DNA of 64,000 nt from Streptomyces cathayae (lineage in GTDB: Bacteria > Actinomycetota > Actinomycetes > Streptomycetales > Streptomycetaceae). Each line of letters starts with the position of its first letter. Positions within the stretch are counted from its first letter, which is position 1. Shown piece after piece: positions 3,498 to 53,162 of the stretch. The notes under the pieces are model-generated. The model was not told the DNA's origin. It did no database searches and was given only the letters and a program-made list of their open reading frames with translations. The stretch spans positions 6,076,001 to 6,140,000 of the forward strand of contig NZ_CP121682.1 in the NCBI RefSeq assembly GCF_029760955.1, given 5' to 3'. A program made the position numbers and the translations under genes.

Positions 3498-5153
3498 ATG
3501 AACGCAGACGGCCGTACCAGGCTCGACCAGATCCCCGAGTGGACCGCACTGGCCAAGCACCGGGAGGAGCTCGGGGACGTGCGGTTGCGCGAGGTGTTCG
3601 CTGCCGATCCCGACCGCGGCACCGCGTACACCCTCCGAGTCGGTGATCTGTACATCGACTACTCCAAGCACCTCGTCACCGACGAGACCCTCCGGCTGTT
3701 GCGTGAACTGGCCTCGGCCACCGATGTGTTCGGACTGCGCGACGCCATGTTCCGCGGTGAGCGGATCAACACCACCGAGGACCGGGCCGTGCTGCACACC
3801 GCGCTCCGGGCGCCGCGGGACGCGGTGATCGAGGTCGACGGGGAGAACGTCGTACCGGGGGTGCACGAGGTCCTCGACAAGATGGCCGCCTTCGCCGACC
3901 GGGTCCGCTCCGGGGAGTGGACCGGCCACACCGGCAAGCGCATCCGCACCGTGGTCAACGTCGGCATCGGCGGCTCGGACCTCGGCCCCGCGATGGCGTA
4001 CGAGGCGCTGCGCGCCTACACCGACCGGGACCTCACGGTCCGCTTCGTGTCCAACGTGGACGGCGCCGACCTGCACGAGGCCCTCCGCGACCTGGACCCG
4101 GCCGAGACGCTGTTCATCATCGCGTCCAAGACCTTCACCACCATCGAGACGGTCACCAACGCCACCTCCGCGCGGACCTGGCTGCTGAACGCGCTGGGCG
4201 GTGAAGAGGCCGCCGTCGCCCAGCACTTCGTCGCCCTGTCGACGAACGCGGAGAAGGTCGCCGACTTCGGCATCGACACGGCCAACATGTTCGAGTTCTG
4301 GGACTGGGTCGGCGGGCGCTACTCGTACGACTCGGCGATCGGCCTGTCCCTGATGATCGCCATCGGCCCGGACCGCTTCCGGGAGATGCTCGACGGGTTC
4401 CGTCTCGTCGACGAGCACTTCCGGACGGCTCCCGCGGAGTCCAACGTGCCGCTCCTGCTGGGCCTGTTGGGCGTCTGGTACGGCAACTTCCTGGGCGCCC
4501 AGTCGCACGCGGTGCTGCCGTACTCGCACTACCTGTCGAAGTTCACCGCCTATCTCCAGCAGCTCGACATGGAGTCCAACGGCAAGTACGTCGGCCGGGA
4601 CGGGCGCGAGGTCCGCTGGCAGACCGGGCCCGTCGTCTGGGGCACGCCCGGCACCAACGGGCAGCACGCCTACTACCAGCTGATCCACCAGGGGACGAAG
4701 CTGATCCCGGCGGACTTCATCGGCTTCGCCGAGCCGGTCGCCGAGCTGAGTGAGGACCTCAAGGCGCAGCACGACCTGCTGATGGCCAACTTCTTCGCCC
4801 AGACGCAGGCCCTGGCCTTCGGCAAGACGCCGGACGAGGTGCGCGCCGAGGGCGTGCCCGAGGAGCTGGTGCCGCACAAGACCTTCAAGGGCGACCACCC
4901 CACGACCACGATCCTCGCGCGTGAGCTGACGCCGTCCGTCCTCGGCCAGCTCGTCGCCCTGTACGAGCACAAGGTGTTCGTGCAGGGCGCGATCTGGGAC
5001 ATCGACTCCTTCGACCAGTGGGGTGTCGAGCTGGGCAAGGTGCTCGCCCGGCGCGTCGAGCCCGCGCTCACCGAGGGCGCCGGCGTGCCGGGCCTGGACG
5101 CCTCCACCCAGGCCCTGGTCGCCACCTACCGGGAGCTGCGCGGCCGGCGGTGA
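3498..5153 (+). CDS. pgi: Glucose-6-phosphate isomerase
   Basis: A 551-residue phosphoglucose isomerase interconverting glucose-6-phosphate and fructose-6-phosphate. It contains [19 protein letters not shown] (sugar-phosphate site), the [20 protein letters not shown] segment, the PGI signature [18 protein letters not shown] and the C-terminal [15 protein letters not shown]. The ATG at 3498 was preferred to the ORF start at 3381 because GGAAGAAGG lies just upstream and the 39 extra residues are not typical of the family. Monocistronic, with a strong hairpin after the stop. Confidence 0.97.
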
Positions 5154-49642: not shown

Positions 49643-51100
49643 ATGTCGCTCACCCGCAGGGACTTCACCAGAACATCCGCGGTCGCCGGTGCCGGTGTCG
49701 CACTGGTGGGCAGCGTCGGCGCCCTCGCCTCCGCACCCCACGCCCTCGCGTCCCACGACGCCGAGAGCGTGGGAGAGGACCGGGAGCAGGCCCGGCGGCA
49801 CCACCCCACGGTCGGCTACGGCCCCCTGGTCCCCGACCCCGACGGCATCCTCGCCCTGCCCGCCGGCTTCTCGTACCGCATCCTCACGTACACGGGCAGG
49901 ACCAGGCTCGAGACCGGCGAGTTCACCCCGGCCGAGCACGACGGCACGGCCGCCTTCCCCGGCCCGCGCGGCACCACCCTCCTGGTCAACAACCACGAGA
50001 TCGACGGCCCGCGCGACGAGGCGGAGTTCCCCGTCCCGCTCGCCGAGGGCCTCGTCTACGACCCGGGCGCCCCCGGCGGCTGCACGGTCGTCGAGGTGCG
50101 CCCCGACGGCAGCGTCGCCGAGTGGGTCGGCATCGCCGGCACCGCCGACAACTGCGCGGGCGGCAGCACCCCCTGGGACACCTGGCTCACCTGCGAGGAG
50201 AACTCCGACCGGGCCGGCGAGAACGGCATGACCAAGGACCACGGCTACGTCTTCGAGGTCGACCCGGCCGACCGGCGCGCCAACCGCGACCCCAAGCCGC
50301 TGAAGTTCTTCGGCCGTTACGACCACGAGGCCGTCGTCATCGACCCCAGGCGCGGCCACGCCTACCTCACCGAGGACGCCGACGAGCCCAACGGCCTGTT
50401 CTTCCGCTGGAGTCCGCCCGAGGACTTCCGCCACGGCCCCGGCAGGTTCCGCACCCTCGCCGACGACGCGGGCGTCCTCCAGGCGCCCAAGTGCTACGAC
50501 TCCGGCGGCCGGTTCGTCGACGACCTCTCCCGCGCCACCAGGACCGGCACGGTGTACGGCGTCGACTGGGTCGACGTACCGGACCGCGACGCGCGGACCG
50601 TCTCCGTGCGCGAGCAGTTCGGGCCCGGTGAGATCACCCGGGGCCGCAAGCTGGAGGGCATGTGGTGGGGCGACGGCGGGGCGTACTTCGTCTCCTCGTA
50701 CGCCCGTGAGGAGAGCCCCGTCCAGCACGACGGCCAGGTCTGGTTCTACGACCCCCGGCGCCGCACCCTGACCCTCAAGGTCCTGCTCGGCGTGAACCCC
50801 GACCCCGGCAAGGAAGGCGCCTTCGACGGCCCCGACAACATCACCGTCTCCCCGTACGGCGGGCTGGTCATCGCCGAGGACGGCGACGGCGTGCAGCACC
50901 TGTTCGGCGCCACCGACAGCGGACGCACCTACCCCATCGCCCGCAACGAACTGAACATCGGCACCGAACAGGAGCCGGAGTTCAGCGAGTTCACCGGCGT
51001 CACCTTCTCGCCCGACGGAAGGACCCTGTACACCAACATCCAGGAACCGGGCATCCTGCTCGCCGTCACCGGCCCCTGGAAGCGGCAGAAGCGCCGGTAG
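49643..51100 (+). CDS. PhoX-family (DUF839) alkaline phosphatase, Tat-exported
   Basis: A 485-residue PhoX-type protein. The twin-arginine leader is SLTRRDFTRTSAVAGAGVAL. The beta-propeller body has NNHE, ENSDRAGENGMTKDHGYVFE, FGRYDHEAVVIDP, YLTEDADEPNGLFFRW and KLEGMWWGDGGAYFVSSYA, the residues that hold the Ca/Fe site in PhoX. ATG at 49643 with AGGAG 6 bases upstream. The likely role is scavenging phosphate from esters outside the cell; the neighbouring secreted nuclease would supply nucleotides. Confidence 0.9.
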   Translation: MSLTRRDFTRTSAVAGAGVALVGSVGALASAPHALASHDAESVGEDREQARRHHPTVGYGPLVPDPDGILALPAGFSYRILTYTGRTRLETGEFTPAEHDGTAAFPGPRGTTLLVNNHEIDGPRDEAEFPVPLAEGLVYDPGAPGGCTVVEVRPDGSVAEWVGIAGTADNCAGGSTPWDTWLTCEENSDRAGENGMTKDHGYVFEVDPADRRANRDPKPLKFFGRYDHEAVVIDPRRGHAYLTEDADEPNGLFFRWSPPEDFRHGPGRFRTLADDAGVLQAPKCYDSGGRFVDDLSRATRTGTVYGVDWVDVPDRDARTVSVREQFGPGEITRGRKLEGMWWGDGGAYFVSSYAREESPVQHDGQVWFYDPRRRTLTLKVLLGVNPDPGKEGAFDGPDNITVSPYGGLVIAEDGDGVQHLFGATDSGRTYPIARNELNIGTEQEPEFSEFTGVTFSPDGRTLYTNIQEPGILLAVTGPWKRQKRR

Positions 51101-51133
51101 TTAATTCGCTCGCCCGACCGAGGGTCGCCCTTT

Positions 51134-51139
51134 TAGAGT
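51134..51139 (+). promoter_or_regulatory. -10 box of the Y-RNA cluster
   Basis: TAGAGT ends 7 bases before 51147, the first base of the closing helix of RNA A, so the predicted transcription start coincides with the RNA's 5' end. No good -35 was seen. A weak hairpin (CGACC/GGTCG at 51115-51127) and CCCTTTT just upstream may end phoX transcription. Confidence 0.5.
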
Positions 51140-51146
51140 GATGCAC

Positions 51147-51284
51147 GTCCAGGTGCGAAGGCAGGACCTACTTCCACTCATAATGGGGCGGTCACGGGTT
51201 CGAGTCCCGTCACCGGCACAACACGCCGGTGTAGCTCAGGGGTCAGAGCACCATCGTCGGTTCCGCCGGCCTTGATCTCTGGAC
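51147..51284 (+). ncRNA. YrlA-type Y RNA (A) with circularly permuted tRNA-like domain
   Basis: The order is T-arm, acceptor 3' strand, loop, acceptor 5' strand, D-arm, the reverse of a tRNA. T-arm ACGGG-TTCGAGT-CCCGT is at 51194-51210. CACCGGC (51211-51217) pairs with GCCGGTG (51225-51231) across ACAACAC. D-arm GCTC-AGGGGTCA-GAGC is at 51234-51249. Outer helices are GTCCAG/CTGGAC (51147-51152 with 51279-51284), AAGGC/GCCTT (51158-51162 with 51269-51273), GGACC/GGTTC and ATGG/CCAT. An internal loop GTGCG opposite GATCT lies between the first two. This is the YrlA layout: a Ro-binding stem plus a tRNA mimic without a free CCA end. Confidence 0.8.
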
Positions 51285-51300
51285 ACCACAACTTCATGCA

Positions 51301-51372
51301 CCTCCCGGTGCGCGGGCGAAGGTTCCTTCGTTGTGATCGAATCCAGGCCGCCGCCGACTTGATCTCGGGAGG
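51301..51372 (+). ncRNA. Short Y RNA (B) without the tRNA-like domain
   Basis: A perfect closing helix CCTCCCG (51301-51307) with CGGGAGG (51366-51372) is followed inside by the same GTGCG (51308-51312) opposite GATCT (51361-51365) internal loop as RNA A. GGCG/CGCC pairs come next, but the base-pairing competes with a hairpin CGAAGG-TT-CCTTCG (51317-51330). TTGATCGAATCC-like sequence near 51335 may be a trace of a T-loop. At 72 bases it is about half the size of RNAs A and C. Confidence 0.6.
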
Positions 51373-51385
51373 CGCGGCATCTGGT

Positions 51386-51527
51386 GGGTGCCCGGTGCGC
51401 AGGCAGCGGGTACTTCTCGGATCGGGTTCATTGCGGGTTCGAATCCCGTCATCGGCTTCGGGCCGGTGTGGCGGAAGTGGAAGACGCGCCTGACTTGTTC
51501 CGCGGCCGCCTCGTTTCTCGGGCACCC
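51386..51527 (+). ncRNA. YrlA-type Y RNA (C) with tRNA-Leu-like permuted domain
   Basis: A perfect 9-bp closing helix, GGGTGCCCG (51386-51394) with CGGGCACCC (51519-51527), is followed by GTGCG (51395-51399) and AGGC/GCCT (51401-51404 with 51508-51511). The tRNA mimic has T-arm GCGGG-TTCGAAT-CCCGT (51433-51449), acceptor CATCGGC (51450-51456) with GCCGGTG (51462-51468) closed by a UUCG-type loop, and D-arm GCG/CGC (51471-51473 with 51485-51487) enclosing an A/G-rich loop. The last part resembles the 5' third of a tRNA-Leu. It ends 51 bases before the Ro60 start. Confidence 0.78.
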
Positions 51528-51578
51528 TCCTTTGTCGTGCCTCCCTCCGGAACGGAAATGAATTCGGGGGAATTCACC

Positions 51579-53162
51579 ATGGCGCGATTCAACACCCGGG
51601 CCGCCAAGGCACAGTCGGCGTCGCGCGTGACGTCGACCGGCCGCGTGCTGCGTACGTACGAGGGCGGCCGTGGGCGCGAGCGGGAGCCGCGCTCCGAACT
51701 CTTCCTGCTCGCCGTCTCCCACCTCGTGACGCAGCGGACCTTCTACGAGGCCGGCGACGACCGTGACGACCGGTTCGCGAAGCTCGTGCGCGAGCTCGCC
51801 GTGAGCGACCCGTCCTGGACGGCCGGGCTGCTCGGCTGGCTGCGCGGCGAGGGAAACCTGCGGACCGCCTCGATCGTGGGCGCCGCCGAGTACGTCAAGG
51901 CCCGCCTCGACGCCGGCGTGACCGGCGGCCCGTCGAACCGGCAGGTCGTGGACTCCGTGCTGCGGCGGCCCGACGAGCCCGGCGAACTGCTCGCCTACTG
52001 GACCGCGATGTACGGCCGGAACGTCCCGAAGCCGGTCAAGCGAGGTGTCGCCGACGCCGTACGGCGGCTCTACGGCGGCAAGGCCCTGCTGAAGTACGAC
52101 ACCGCCTCCAAGGGCTACCGCTTCGGCGACATCCTCAACCTGGTGCACGCGGCCCCCGACCCGGACAAGCCGTGGCAGGGCGAACTGTTCCGGTACGCCC
52201 TCGACCGCCGGCACAACCCGGACACCGCGGTTCCGCCCGCCCCGAACCGTGTCCTCACCGCGCACCACGAGCTGATGGCGCTGCCCGTCGAGGAGCGGCG
52301 CGCGGTCGTCACCGCACCCGACGGAGCCGAGCGGCTCGCCGCCGCGGGCATCACCTGGGAGGCGCTGGCGGGCTGGCTGCAGGGGCCGATGGACAAGGCG
52401 GCCTGGGAGGCCATGATCCCGTCCATGGGCACGATGGCCCTGGTGCGGAACCTGCGGAACTTCGACGAGGCGGGGGTGTCCGACGAGGTCGCCGCGCGGG
52501 TCGCCGACCGCCTCGCCGACCCGGCGGAGGTCGCGAAGTCGCGGCAGTTCCCCTTCCGGTACCTCGCCGCGTACCGGCACGCGCCGTCGCCGCGCTGGTC
52601 GTACCCGCTGGAGCGGGCGCTCGGTCACTCGCTGGCCAACGTGCCCGCGATGCCCGGCCGCACCCTGGTGCTCGTCGACCGCTCGGGCTCGATGTTCTCC
52701 TCACGGATGTCGGACCGCTCCGAGCTGACCCGCGCGGACGCGGCGGCGGTCTTCGGCACGGCGCTCGCGCTGCGGGCCGCGAAGGCGGACCTCGTCGAGT
52801 TCGGCTCGACGAGCAAGCCGGTGCCGTTCCGCCGGGGCGAGGCGGTGCTGAAGATCCTCGGCCGGTTCGGCGACCTCGGCGGCACCGACACCACCGGGGC
52901 GGTGCGCCGGCACTACGAGCGGCACGACCGGGTGCTGATCGTCACCGACGAGCAGTACACCCACAGCCGGCACGGCGACCCGACCGAGCAGGTCCCGGCC
53001 GATGTGCCGGTCTACACCTGGAACCTCGCCGGATACCGTGCGGGCCACGGCCCGTCGGGCACGGCGAACCGGCACACCTTCGGCGGCCTGTCGGACGCCG
53101 CTTTCCGCATGGTCCCGCTGCTCGAGGCCGGGCGGGACGCCGACTGGCCGTGGGCCGTCTGA
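51579..53162 (+). CDS. rsr: Ro60/Rsr orthologue: TROVE domain with von Willebrand A domain
   Basis: A 527-residue protein with an N-terminal TROVE HEAT-repeat ring (about 20-350; QRTFYEAGDDRDDRFAKLV, FPFRYLAAYR) and a C-terminal vWA domain whose MIDAS motif is intact: Asp367-x-Ser369-x-Ser371 (VLVDRSGSMFSS), Thr near 438 and Asp457 (VLIVTDEQY). Ro60 binds Y RNAs and misfolded RNAs; in Deinococcus Rsr works with PNPase through a Y RNA. The ATG at 51579 has GGGGGA upstream. Three Y-RNA modules lie directly before it, an arrangement expected for a Ro ribonucleoprotein. Confidence 0.94.
   Translation: MARFNTRAAKAQSASRVTSTGRVLRTYEGGRGREREPRSELFLLAVSHLVTQRTFYEAGDDRDDRFAKLVRELAVSDPSWTAGLLGWLRGEGNLRTASIVGAAEYVKARLDAGVTGGPSNRQVVDSVLRRPDEPGELLAYWTAMYGRNVPKPVKRGVADAVRRLYGGKALLKYDTASKGYRFGDILNLVHAAPDPDKPWQGELFRYALDRRHNPDTAVPPAPNRVLTAHHELMALPVEERRAVVTAPDGAERLAAAGITWEALAGWLQGPMDKAAWEAMIPSMGTMALVRNLRNFDEAGVSDEVAARVADRLADPAEVAKSRQFPFRYLAAYRHAPSPRWSYPLERALGHSLANVPAMPGRTLVLVDRSGSMFSSRMSDRSELTRADAAAVFGTALALRAAKADLVEFGSTSKPVPFRRGEAVLKILGRFGDLGGTDTTGAVRRHYERHDRVLIVTDEQYTHSRHGDPTEQVPADVPVYTWNLAGYRAGHGPSGTANRHTFGGLSDAAFRMVPLLEAGRDADWPWAV

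Follow-up and report, generated by a model that had tools for sequence, protein, structure and literature searches.

The segment at positions 51147-51284 of the window (the whole stretch of 64,000 nucleotides from Streptomyces cathayae analysed here) is very probably the leading member of a tandem array of three Y RNAs, which are placed behind one promoter and ahead of a Ro60 gene, all on the plus strand. The array, its helices, the permutation of its tRNA-like parts and the layout of its promoter are established by sequence comparison. What appears to be new is a Y RNA variant resembling a whole tRNA, with an anticodon arm, a tertiary pair and another break point, which stands beside a Y RNA of the YrlA type in the same array. 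According to PMC8394870, the likeness of bacterial Y RNAs to tRNA concerns the D, T and acceptor arms. Neither Streptomyces Y RNAs nor a Y RNA anticodon arm were found in the Y RNA and WblC literature searched by title and abstract, a scope that does not take in Chen 2014 and Wang 2018, the founding studies, or the Sim and Wolin review of 2018. With a variant that is spread through a bacterial group, the purpose of the tRNA mimicry of Y RNAs becomes directly testable in Streptomyces, and so does the timing of Ro60 particle production.

The Ro60 gene and its upstream modules

The gene downstream of the array (51579-53162, plus strand) encodes a Ro60 ortholog, a TROVE-domain protein of 527 amino acids. 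The Pfam TROVE domain matches the product over a short stretch with an E value of 7e-14, and a profile of 18 close sequences retrieved two solved TROVE proteins (E 2e-30) as well as the Ro60 structures 1yvp (E 0.0013) and 9nen (E 0.0091). Close relatives of the ortholog are annotated as TROVE or vWA domain-containing proteins. Typing of the neighbours gave a PhoX-type phosphatase, whose gene lies upstream of the array and ends at 51100, a GntR-type regulator and a PLP enzyme.

Module 1 (M1, 51147-51284, about 138 nt) has a Ro60-type basal stem formed by 51147-51171 and 51259-51284, which carries a cloverleaf permuted at 26/27. Module 2 (M2, 51301-51372, 72 nt) is minimal and consists of a Ro60-type stem with a short loop, the tRNA-like domain being absent, and module 3 (M3, 51386-51527, 142 nt) is of the YrlA type. 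Common to all three is the basal stem GGUGCG..UACUUC / UUGAUCUC, enclosed by an outer helix. As in bacterial Y RNAs, this stem is built from the 5' and 3' ends and contains a conserved internal loop; the loop resembles the motif of vertebrate Y RNAs and we take it to be the Ro60 site. The basal stem is most likely the part to which Ro60 binds.

Covariance models were built for M1 (R1), M2 (R2) and M3 (R3). Each of them includes the window's own copy of its module, and therefore only matches across modules are a real test. R3, trained on M3 sequences alone, matches the M1 segment with 80 bits (E 4e-15), R1 matches M3 at E 9e-12, and R2 matches M1 at E 5e-7, all within the 64-kb window. Folding of the M1 segment as a single sequence is unexceptional (z -1.12).

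A Ro60 match at E <=1e-20 is present in 99 of 199 genomes of the genus, in 111 match rows. Two rows near contig ends and seven fragment rows were left out, and 102 loci were analysed. The earlier note had seen a Y RNA adjoining the Ro60 gene, a position that marks Y RNAs, and the comparison supports this: a module lies upstream of Ro60 in 102 of the 102 loci. The motif GGTGCG is repeated up to three times at regular positions upstream of Ro60 in this set. By a fixed pattern at least one module is recognised in 85/102 loci and all three in 22/102, and each of the remaining 17 has an upstream R2 match, some of them weak (40-69 bits). M1 is absent by pattern in 49/102 loci, a few of which are recovered by the models. 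Among the best 80 of 248 named Streptomyces loci, which may overlap the set of 102, the pattern finds at least one module in 80/80 and all three in 33/80. Thirteen loci (L085, L086, L088-L095 and L097-L099) carry a divergent module before Ro60 that scores only 40-54 bits on R2 and possibly represents another type of Y RNA. Seven of these belong to a second Ro60 copy of their own genome.

The linkage between array and Ro60 is also visible at the level of whole genomes. R2 matches occur in 95 of the 199 genomes, namely in 93/99 Ro60-positive and 2/100 Ro60-negative ones. One of the two negatives (G170, L186) has clear decayed pieces of Ro60 beside the array, and the other (G186, L176) a single weak Ro60 piece of 34 residues (E 3e-4). 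Six Ro60-positive genomes are devoid of an R2 match: four of them (G044, G059, G140, G141) show an R1 match just upstream of Ro60, and the other two (G081, G177) contain Ro60 fragments only. The loci of G170 and G186 suggest that the array may outlive the Ro60 gene. The Ro60 matches in G115, G056 and G005 carry one in-frame TGA each, due to either decay or sequencing error.

The tRNA-like domains of M1 and M3

The arms described in the earlier note are all found in M1. Within 51194-51250 the T-arm with the T-loop TTCGAGT (51194-51210) is followed by a closed acceptor hairpin of 7 bp with the loop ACAACAC (51211-51231), by the D-arm with its G-rich loop (51234-51249) and by position 26 (51250), and the outer helix GTCCA/TGGAC joins the two ends. 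What had been missed, besides the modules at 51301-51372 and 51386-51527, is a hairpin at 51172-51188 (TTCCA-CTCATAA-TGGGG), which corresponds to tRNA positions 27-43 and is separated from the T-arm by a variable loop (51189-51193). It has the form of a full anticodon arm, with five base pairs, a loop of seven nucleotides and U33, and its loop is identical to the CAT loop of the tRNA-Met of the same genome. In tRNA numbering M1 reads as positions 27-72 followed by 1-26. RNAalifold, unprompted, predicted for 23 M1 relatives a hairpin of 5 bp with a 7-nt loop, then the T-arm, the acceptor hairpin and the D-arm; 11 of the 38 pairs, 3 of the 7 acceptor pairs among them, show double changes.

The set of M1-type RNAs comprises 73 sequences, 53 of them from Ro60 arrays and 20 from places that lack an intact Ro60 nearby. 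A fixed register fits 71 of them, in which U33 is kept in 71/71, A38 in 70/71, a purine at position 37 in 64/71, and all five stem pairs in 67/71. In 58 of the 71, the loop of the anticodon arm is letter for letter that of an actual tRNA anticodon loop encoded in the same genome as the window. The two unparsed sequences are L078, which has lost the anticodon arm, and L169, in which the letters just before the arm differ and the arm is visible by eye. A second M1 copy, L323, has likewise lost this arm.

When the domains are rejoined at 26/27, ARAGORN calls a tRNA in 71/71 cases (56/56 in the named genomes), compared to 13/73 in native order, 0/355 shuffled sequences and 0/426 domains joined at other points. 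The MAFFT alignment moved the gap that belongs to a 4-nt variable loop into the anticodon loop, and covariation was for that reason counted on pieces cut in the fixed register. The cutting pattern itself fixes UUC at positions 27-29 and the start of the T-loop, so that the T-loop signature is imposed by it, and it places the acceptor and D helices, but not the anticodon and T helices, by best pairing. In a set of 57 non-redundant domains the anticodon helix shows 97.9% pairing and 37 double-change cells, a number reached by none of 1000 shuffles; U-G predominates at its two outer pairs. The acceptor helix, placed by best pairing, has 41 double-change cells (0/1000 shuffles). A lack of covariation in the acceptor and outer helices had been named in the earlier note as one result that would refute its reading. 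The acceptor does covary, whereas the outer helix of M1 (GTCCA/TGGAC) is invariant among the relatives and thus uninformative on covariation; in M3, covariation is seen in the homologous outer helix. Features of the tertiary structure are kept as well: the 15-48 pair is GC in 51/57 and AU in 4/57 domains, and U8 (55/57), A14 (56/57) and A21 (55/57) are conserved. The anticodon itself varies, with 15 kinds among the 57 domains. By these comparisons the M1 domain is a complete tRNA with four arms and the tertiary 15-48 pair, whose ends have been moved to 26/27.

R1 matches at E 1e-12 were obtained in 23 of 296 genomes of the class, 10 of which are from outside the genus. In another family of the class the same anticodon arm is present in 7 of 8 inspected loci, which were found with a model containing the hairpin and therefore lean towards it.

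The earlier note had proposed the architecture of YrlA, a Y RNA reported in Salmonella, Deinococcus and Mycobacterium smegmatis (PMC8394870, PMC7790460). Like YrlA, M1 is located beside Ro60/Rsr and combines a basal stem with a permuted T-arm, a closed acceptor hairpin and a D-arm, and this part of the proposal stands. The connecting helix of YrlA, which corresponds to a split anticodon stem, is in contrast unsupported in M1: on the M1 columns it is 83.8% paired compared to 83.2% in shuffles, 271 of 500 of which reach it. In M3 this helix (51422-51426 with 51489-51493) is 92.3% paired compared to 65.1%, with 52 double-change cells and none of 500 shuffles reaching it. Two break points are thus combined in one array, one between positions 26 and 27 (M1) and one inside the anticodon loop (M3). 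M3, with its T-arm (51433-51449), acceptor hairpin (51450-51468) and tRNA-Leu-like D-arm (51471-51487), has the YrlA architecture, including the connecting helix drawn in Rfam, and M1 differs from it by a full anticodon hairpin and the break at 26/27. Further differences to YrlA are the presence of up to three different modules per array, the existence of free-standing copies, and the scores obtained with the Rfam model.

A covariance search with Rfam, recommended earlier as a test, did not give a significant hit. The scan of the window at the gathering score was without a match; YrlA (RF02553) matches M1 at 51187-51252 with 31.2 bits and M3 with 16.0 bits, both below the gathering score of 69. 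Among 18 related sources no YrlA match reached that score either (best 56.2 bits; 4/18 without any match). A tandem pair of tRNA-Asn genes of the same genome (L001) obtains 41.3 bits on this model and hence outscores M1, so the YrlA score alone proves nothing. Other YrlA matches in this genome (L004, L006, L007) overlap ordinary tRNA genes and were rejected; L003 is a match without a tRNA. Weak matches to Plastid-ycf2, Plastid-psbl-rps4, permuted tmRNA, tRNA-Sec and tmRNA look like resemblances to tRNA arms and were also discarded.

One could still regard M1 as an ordinary Y RNA of the YrlA type, in which a fortuitous hairpin in front of the T-arm is mistaken for an anticodon arm. No Rfam family other than YrlA gives a plausible match, and the description given in PMC8394870, in the portion consulted, names D, T and acceptor arms only. 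This view is very improbable in the light of U33 in all 71 sequences, the 58 loops that equal a real tRNA anticodon loop, the covariation of the anticodon helix, and a connecting helix that is strong in M3 and unsupported in M1.

Promoter of the array and copies away from Ro60

The predicted promoter (51101-51139, plus strand) consists of TTAATT at 51101-51106, a -35-like TCGCCC at 51110-51115, a spacer of 18 bp and the -10 box TAGAGT at 51134-51139. The box had been noticed before, 7 nt in front of the helix, and is confirmed; M1 is, however, the head of a three-RNA array and not a lone RNA. A TANNNT box is found 6-7 nt before the helix in 53/53 arrays headed by M1 and at most 30 nt before it in 26/29 arrays headed by M2, compared to 0/33 internal M2 and 1/59 M3 modules (shuffles 11-23%). 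Such a box before the first module and hardly ever before the inner ones indicates, in the simplest view, that the array is transcribed as a single unit.

Further upstream, an AAA(T)..T.GC element is common to the arrays and to the free-standing and metK-priA copies described below. Promoters activated by WblC in S. coelicolor are composed of GAAAWY, 3 bp, TKGMNN, 16-19 bp and TANNNT (PMC7157823), and most of the Y promoters resemble this WblC/WhiB7 type in layout. The site predicted in the window fits in spacing and agrees in 7 of 10 letters with the consensus, which is that of S. coelicolor. Among 105 Y promoters that have a -10 box, 101 reach a score of at least 7 of 10 (51/53, 26/26, 16/18 and 8/8), where promoters of related arrays are not independent of each other. 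Among the controls such a score is obtained for 11% of 375 TANNNT sites, some of which are themselves Y promoters, and for 7 of 75 sites that precede predicted genes. The WblC regulon of S. coelicolor is reported to include 22 noncoding RNAs, among them 6 tRNAs and 4 independent intergenic RNAs (PMC7157823). We consider the chances that WblC controls the expression of these Y RNAs to be about even. Promoters of the WblC type would suggest translation stress as the time at which Ro60 particles are made.

At least 30 R1 and R2 matches lie far from Ro60, and 30 were analysed. Eighteen are single free-standing copies of the M1 type (L157-L175 except L162), mostly tRNA-Glu-like. All 18 have a -10 box 6-7 nt upstream, and 16 of the 18 are followed within 60 nt by a GC-rich stem of at least 8 bp, compared to 47 of 360 shuffles. 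No recurring cluster of three or more genes was seen beside them by crude gene calling. One genome that is 99% complete (G196) has two M1-type Y RNAs with all arms (L159, L160) and no Ro60 match at E 0.001. Nine further copies (L177-L185) are of the M2 type, about 100 nt long, and occur in one conserved setting between metK and priA, around base 4000 in RNA orientation. In L181, Pfam assigns an omega subunit, a CoaBC-type protein and S-adenosylmethionine synthetase (metK) before the RNA and PriA after it. A second Y-like stem follows in 4 of the 9 metK-priA copies, as judged by reading, and the loop part of the metK-priA RNA itself does not look tRNA-like. L162 (genome G065) is a second array with M2 and a tRNA-like Y RNA, distant from the only Ro60 match present there.

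Directly before the Ro60 start, the palindromic leader GAATTCGGGGGAATTC (51560-51575, plus strand) includes the ribosome-binding G-run. Of the 89 loci covered by the leader analysis, which excluded 13 others, 58 keep the palindrome around the G-run, and an upstream CUCCC stretch may be able to pair with it. The idea of a regulatory hairpin in this leader was considered and set aside; folding is weak, with a mean z of -0.85 over 23 loci. This bears on the possibility that the array is only a cis leader of the Ro60 mRNA, autoregulated via Ro60 binding, and does not give rise to separate Y RNAs. Such a role would agree with the position of the array just upstream of Ro60 in the analysed loci and with the conserved palindrome that comes after it. 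The weak folding of the leader speaks against it, as do the M1-type copies that stand alone elsewhere with their own -10 boxes and with GC-rich stems behind most of them, and we regard a pure cis leader as quite unlikely.

Possible functions and origin of the tRNA-like domains

In the reading preferred here, that of separate Y RNAs, each module would bind Ro60 via its basal stem, which would be held at the Ro60 ring. The permuted tRNA-like domains of M1 and M3 would serve as effector-binding modules and recruit PNPase or another tRNA-binding effector, and M2 would occupy the ring without an effector. The recruited effector could gate Ro60-bound RNA or direct it to decay, and expression would be raised under translation stress through the WblC-type promoter. 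Known cases in which a Y RNA links Rsr/Ro60 to PNPase have been reported (PMC8394870; PMC7790460), and the comparison with the YrlA-PNPase machine (RYPER), where the tRNA-like domain tethers PNPase to Ro60, is one of analogy. That the tRNA-like domains studied here tether PNPase in the same manner is a real possibility, which we place slightly below an even chance. In the rsr-yrlBA-rtcBA operon of Salmonella, at least two tandem Y RNAs likewise accompany a Ro60 gene (PMC7790460). The Salmonella Y RNAs are part of an RNA repair operon controlled by RtcR, whereas those of the present array are located upstream of Ro60 and behind a -35/-10 promoter of the WblC type.

With a closed acceptor and no CCA end, M1 should not be chargeable. 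Proteins that bind tRNA could still read it, and M1 and its free-standing kin may also act as decoys or sensors towards proteins that recognise or cleave anticodon arms, with Ro60 as the carrier. For Salmonella it was suggested that the tRNA-like domain inhibits an anticodon nuclease, and YrlA itself was reported to remain uncut by the nuclease (PMC7790460). Promoters of the WblC type, and an anticodon arm that is kept tRNA-like while the anticodon varies, are in line with decoys. U33 and A38, conserved beside a changing anticodon, fit either a decoy or a mimicry that attracts tRNA-modifying enzymes. However, the uncut YrlA argues against decoys, and the same loops suit plain tRNA mimicry for modification or for PNPase binding; a decoy or sensor function is unlikely on this evidence. 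A still broader proposal is that actinobacterial Y RNAs are a family of uncharged, permuted full tRNAs, in which the anticodon arm still looks functional while its identity shifts as parts of real tRNAs (Met, Ile, Lys, Asn, Glu, Asp and Leu types) are captured, that Ro60 carries them and WblC induces them during translation stress, and that they act as anticodon-arm decoys or sensors beyond a PNPase tether. We put it forward as speculative and on balance doubtful. The natural series of tRNA types in one scaffold would be ready material for finding the proteins that read them.

As to the origin of the domain, tandem tRNA genes offer a parallel. The M1 domain corresponds to positions 27-72 of one tRNA plus 1-26 of the next, and tandem tRNA-Asn genes (L001, L218, L219) match this permuted domain and show how such a slice could arise. 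R1 also gives many 79-nt matches (model positions 30-108, about 63 bits); two were inspected and are tandem tRNA-Asn pairs, and such partial matches were therefore not counted as Y RNAs. One may ask whether the array itself consists of decayed or recently duplicated tandem tRNA genes and not of functional RNAs, the tRNA-Asn pairs being the possible source of the domain. M1 differs from such genes, and from permuted tRNAs, in that it lacks a CCA end, is enclosed by the Ro60 stem and receives no tRNA call; indeed ARAGORN finds no linear tRNA in the window. The flanking Ro60-type stem is moreover nearly invariant among relatives, and the domain shows covariation and stays with Ro60 in a large number of genomes. 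The probability that the modules are such tRNA genes is negligible.

The resemblance to particular tRNAs, for which the counts refer to sequences related by descent and not to independent events, changes from copy to copy. In 70 of 71 M1-type RNAs the D-region is at a distance of 4 or less from a tRNA, compared to 5 or more for shuffled sequences. Of the M1-type copies located apart from Ro60, 15/19 have tRNA-Glu(UUC) as their closest tRNA. The D-regions of M3 were typed in 57 of the 59 copies, two being unparsed, and are nearest to tRNA-Leu in 15/57, the window's own copy included (distance 3). A variable region of at least 21 nt is present in 12 of these 15 tRNA-Leu-like copies (the window's not among them) and in 0/42 other M3 copies. 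We infer that parts of real tRNAs were captured repeatedly. The M3 D-region of L066 differs by one change from a tRNA-Met, which is presumably the initiator.
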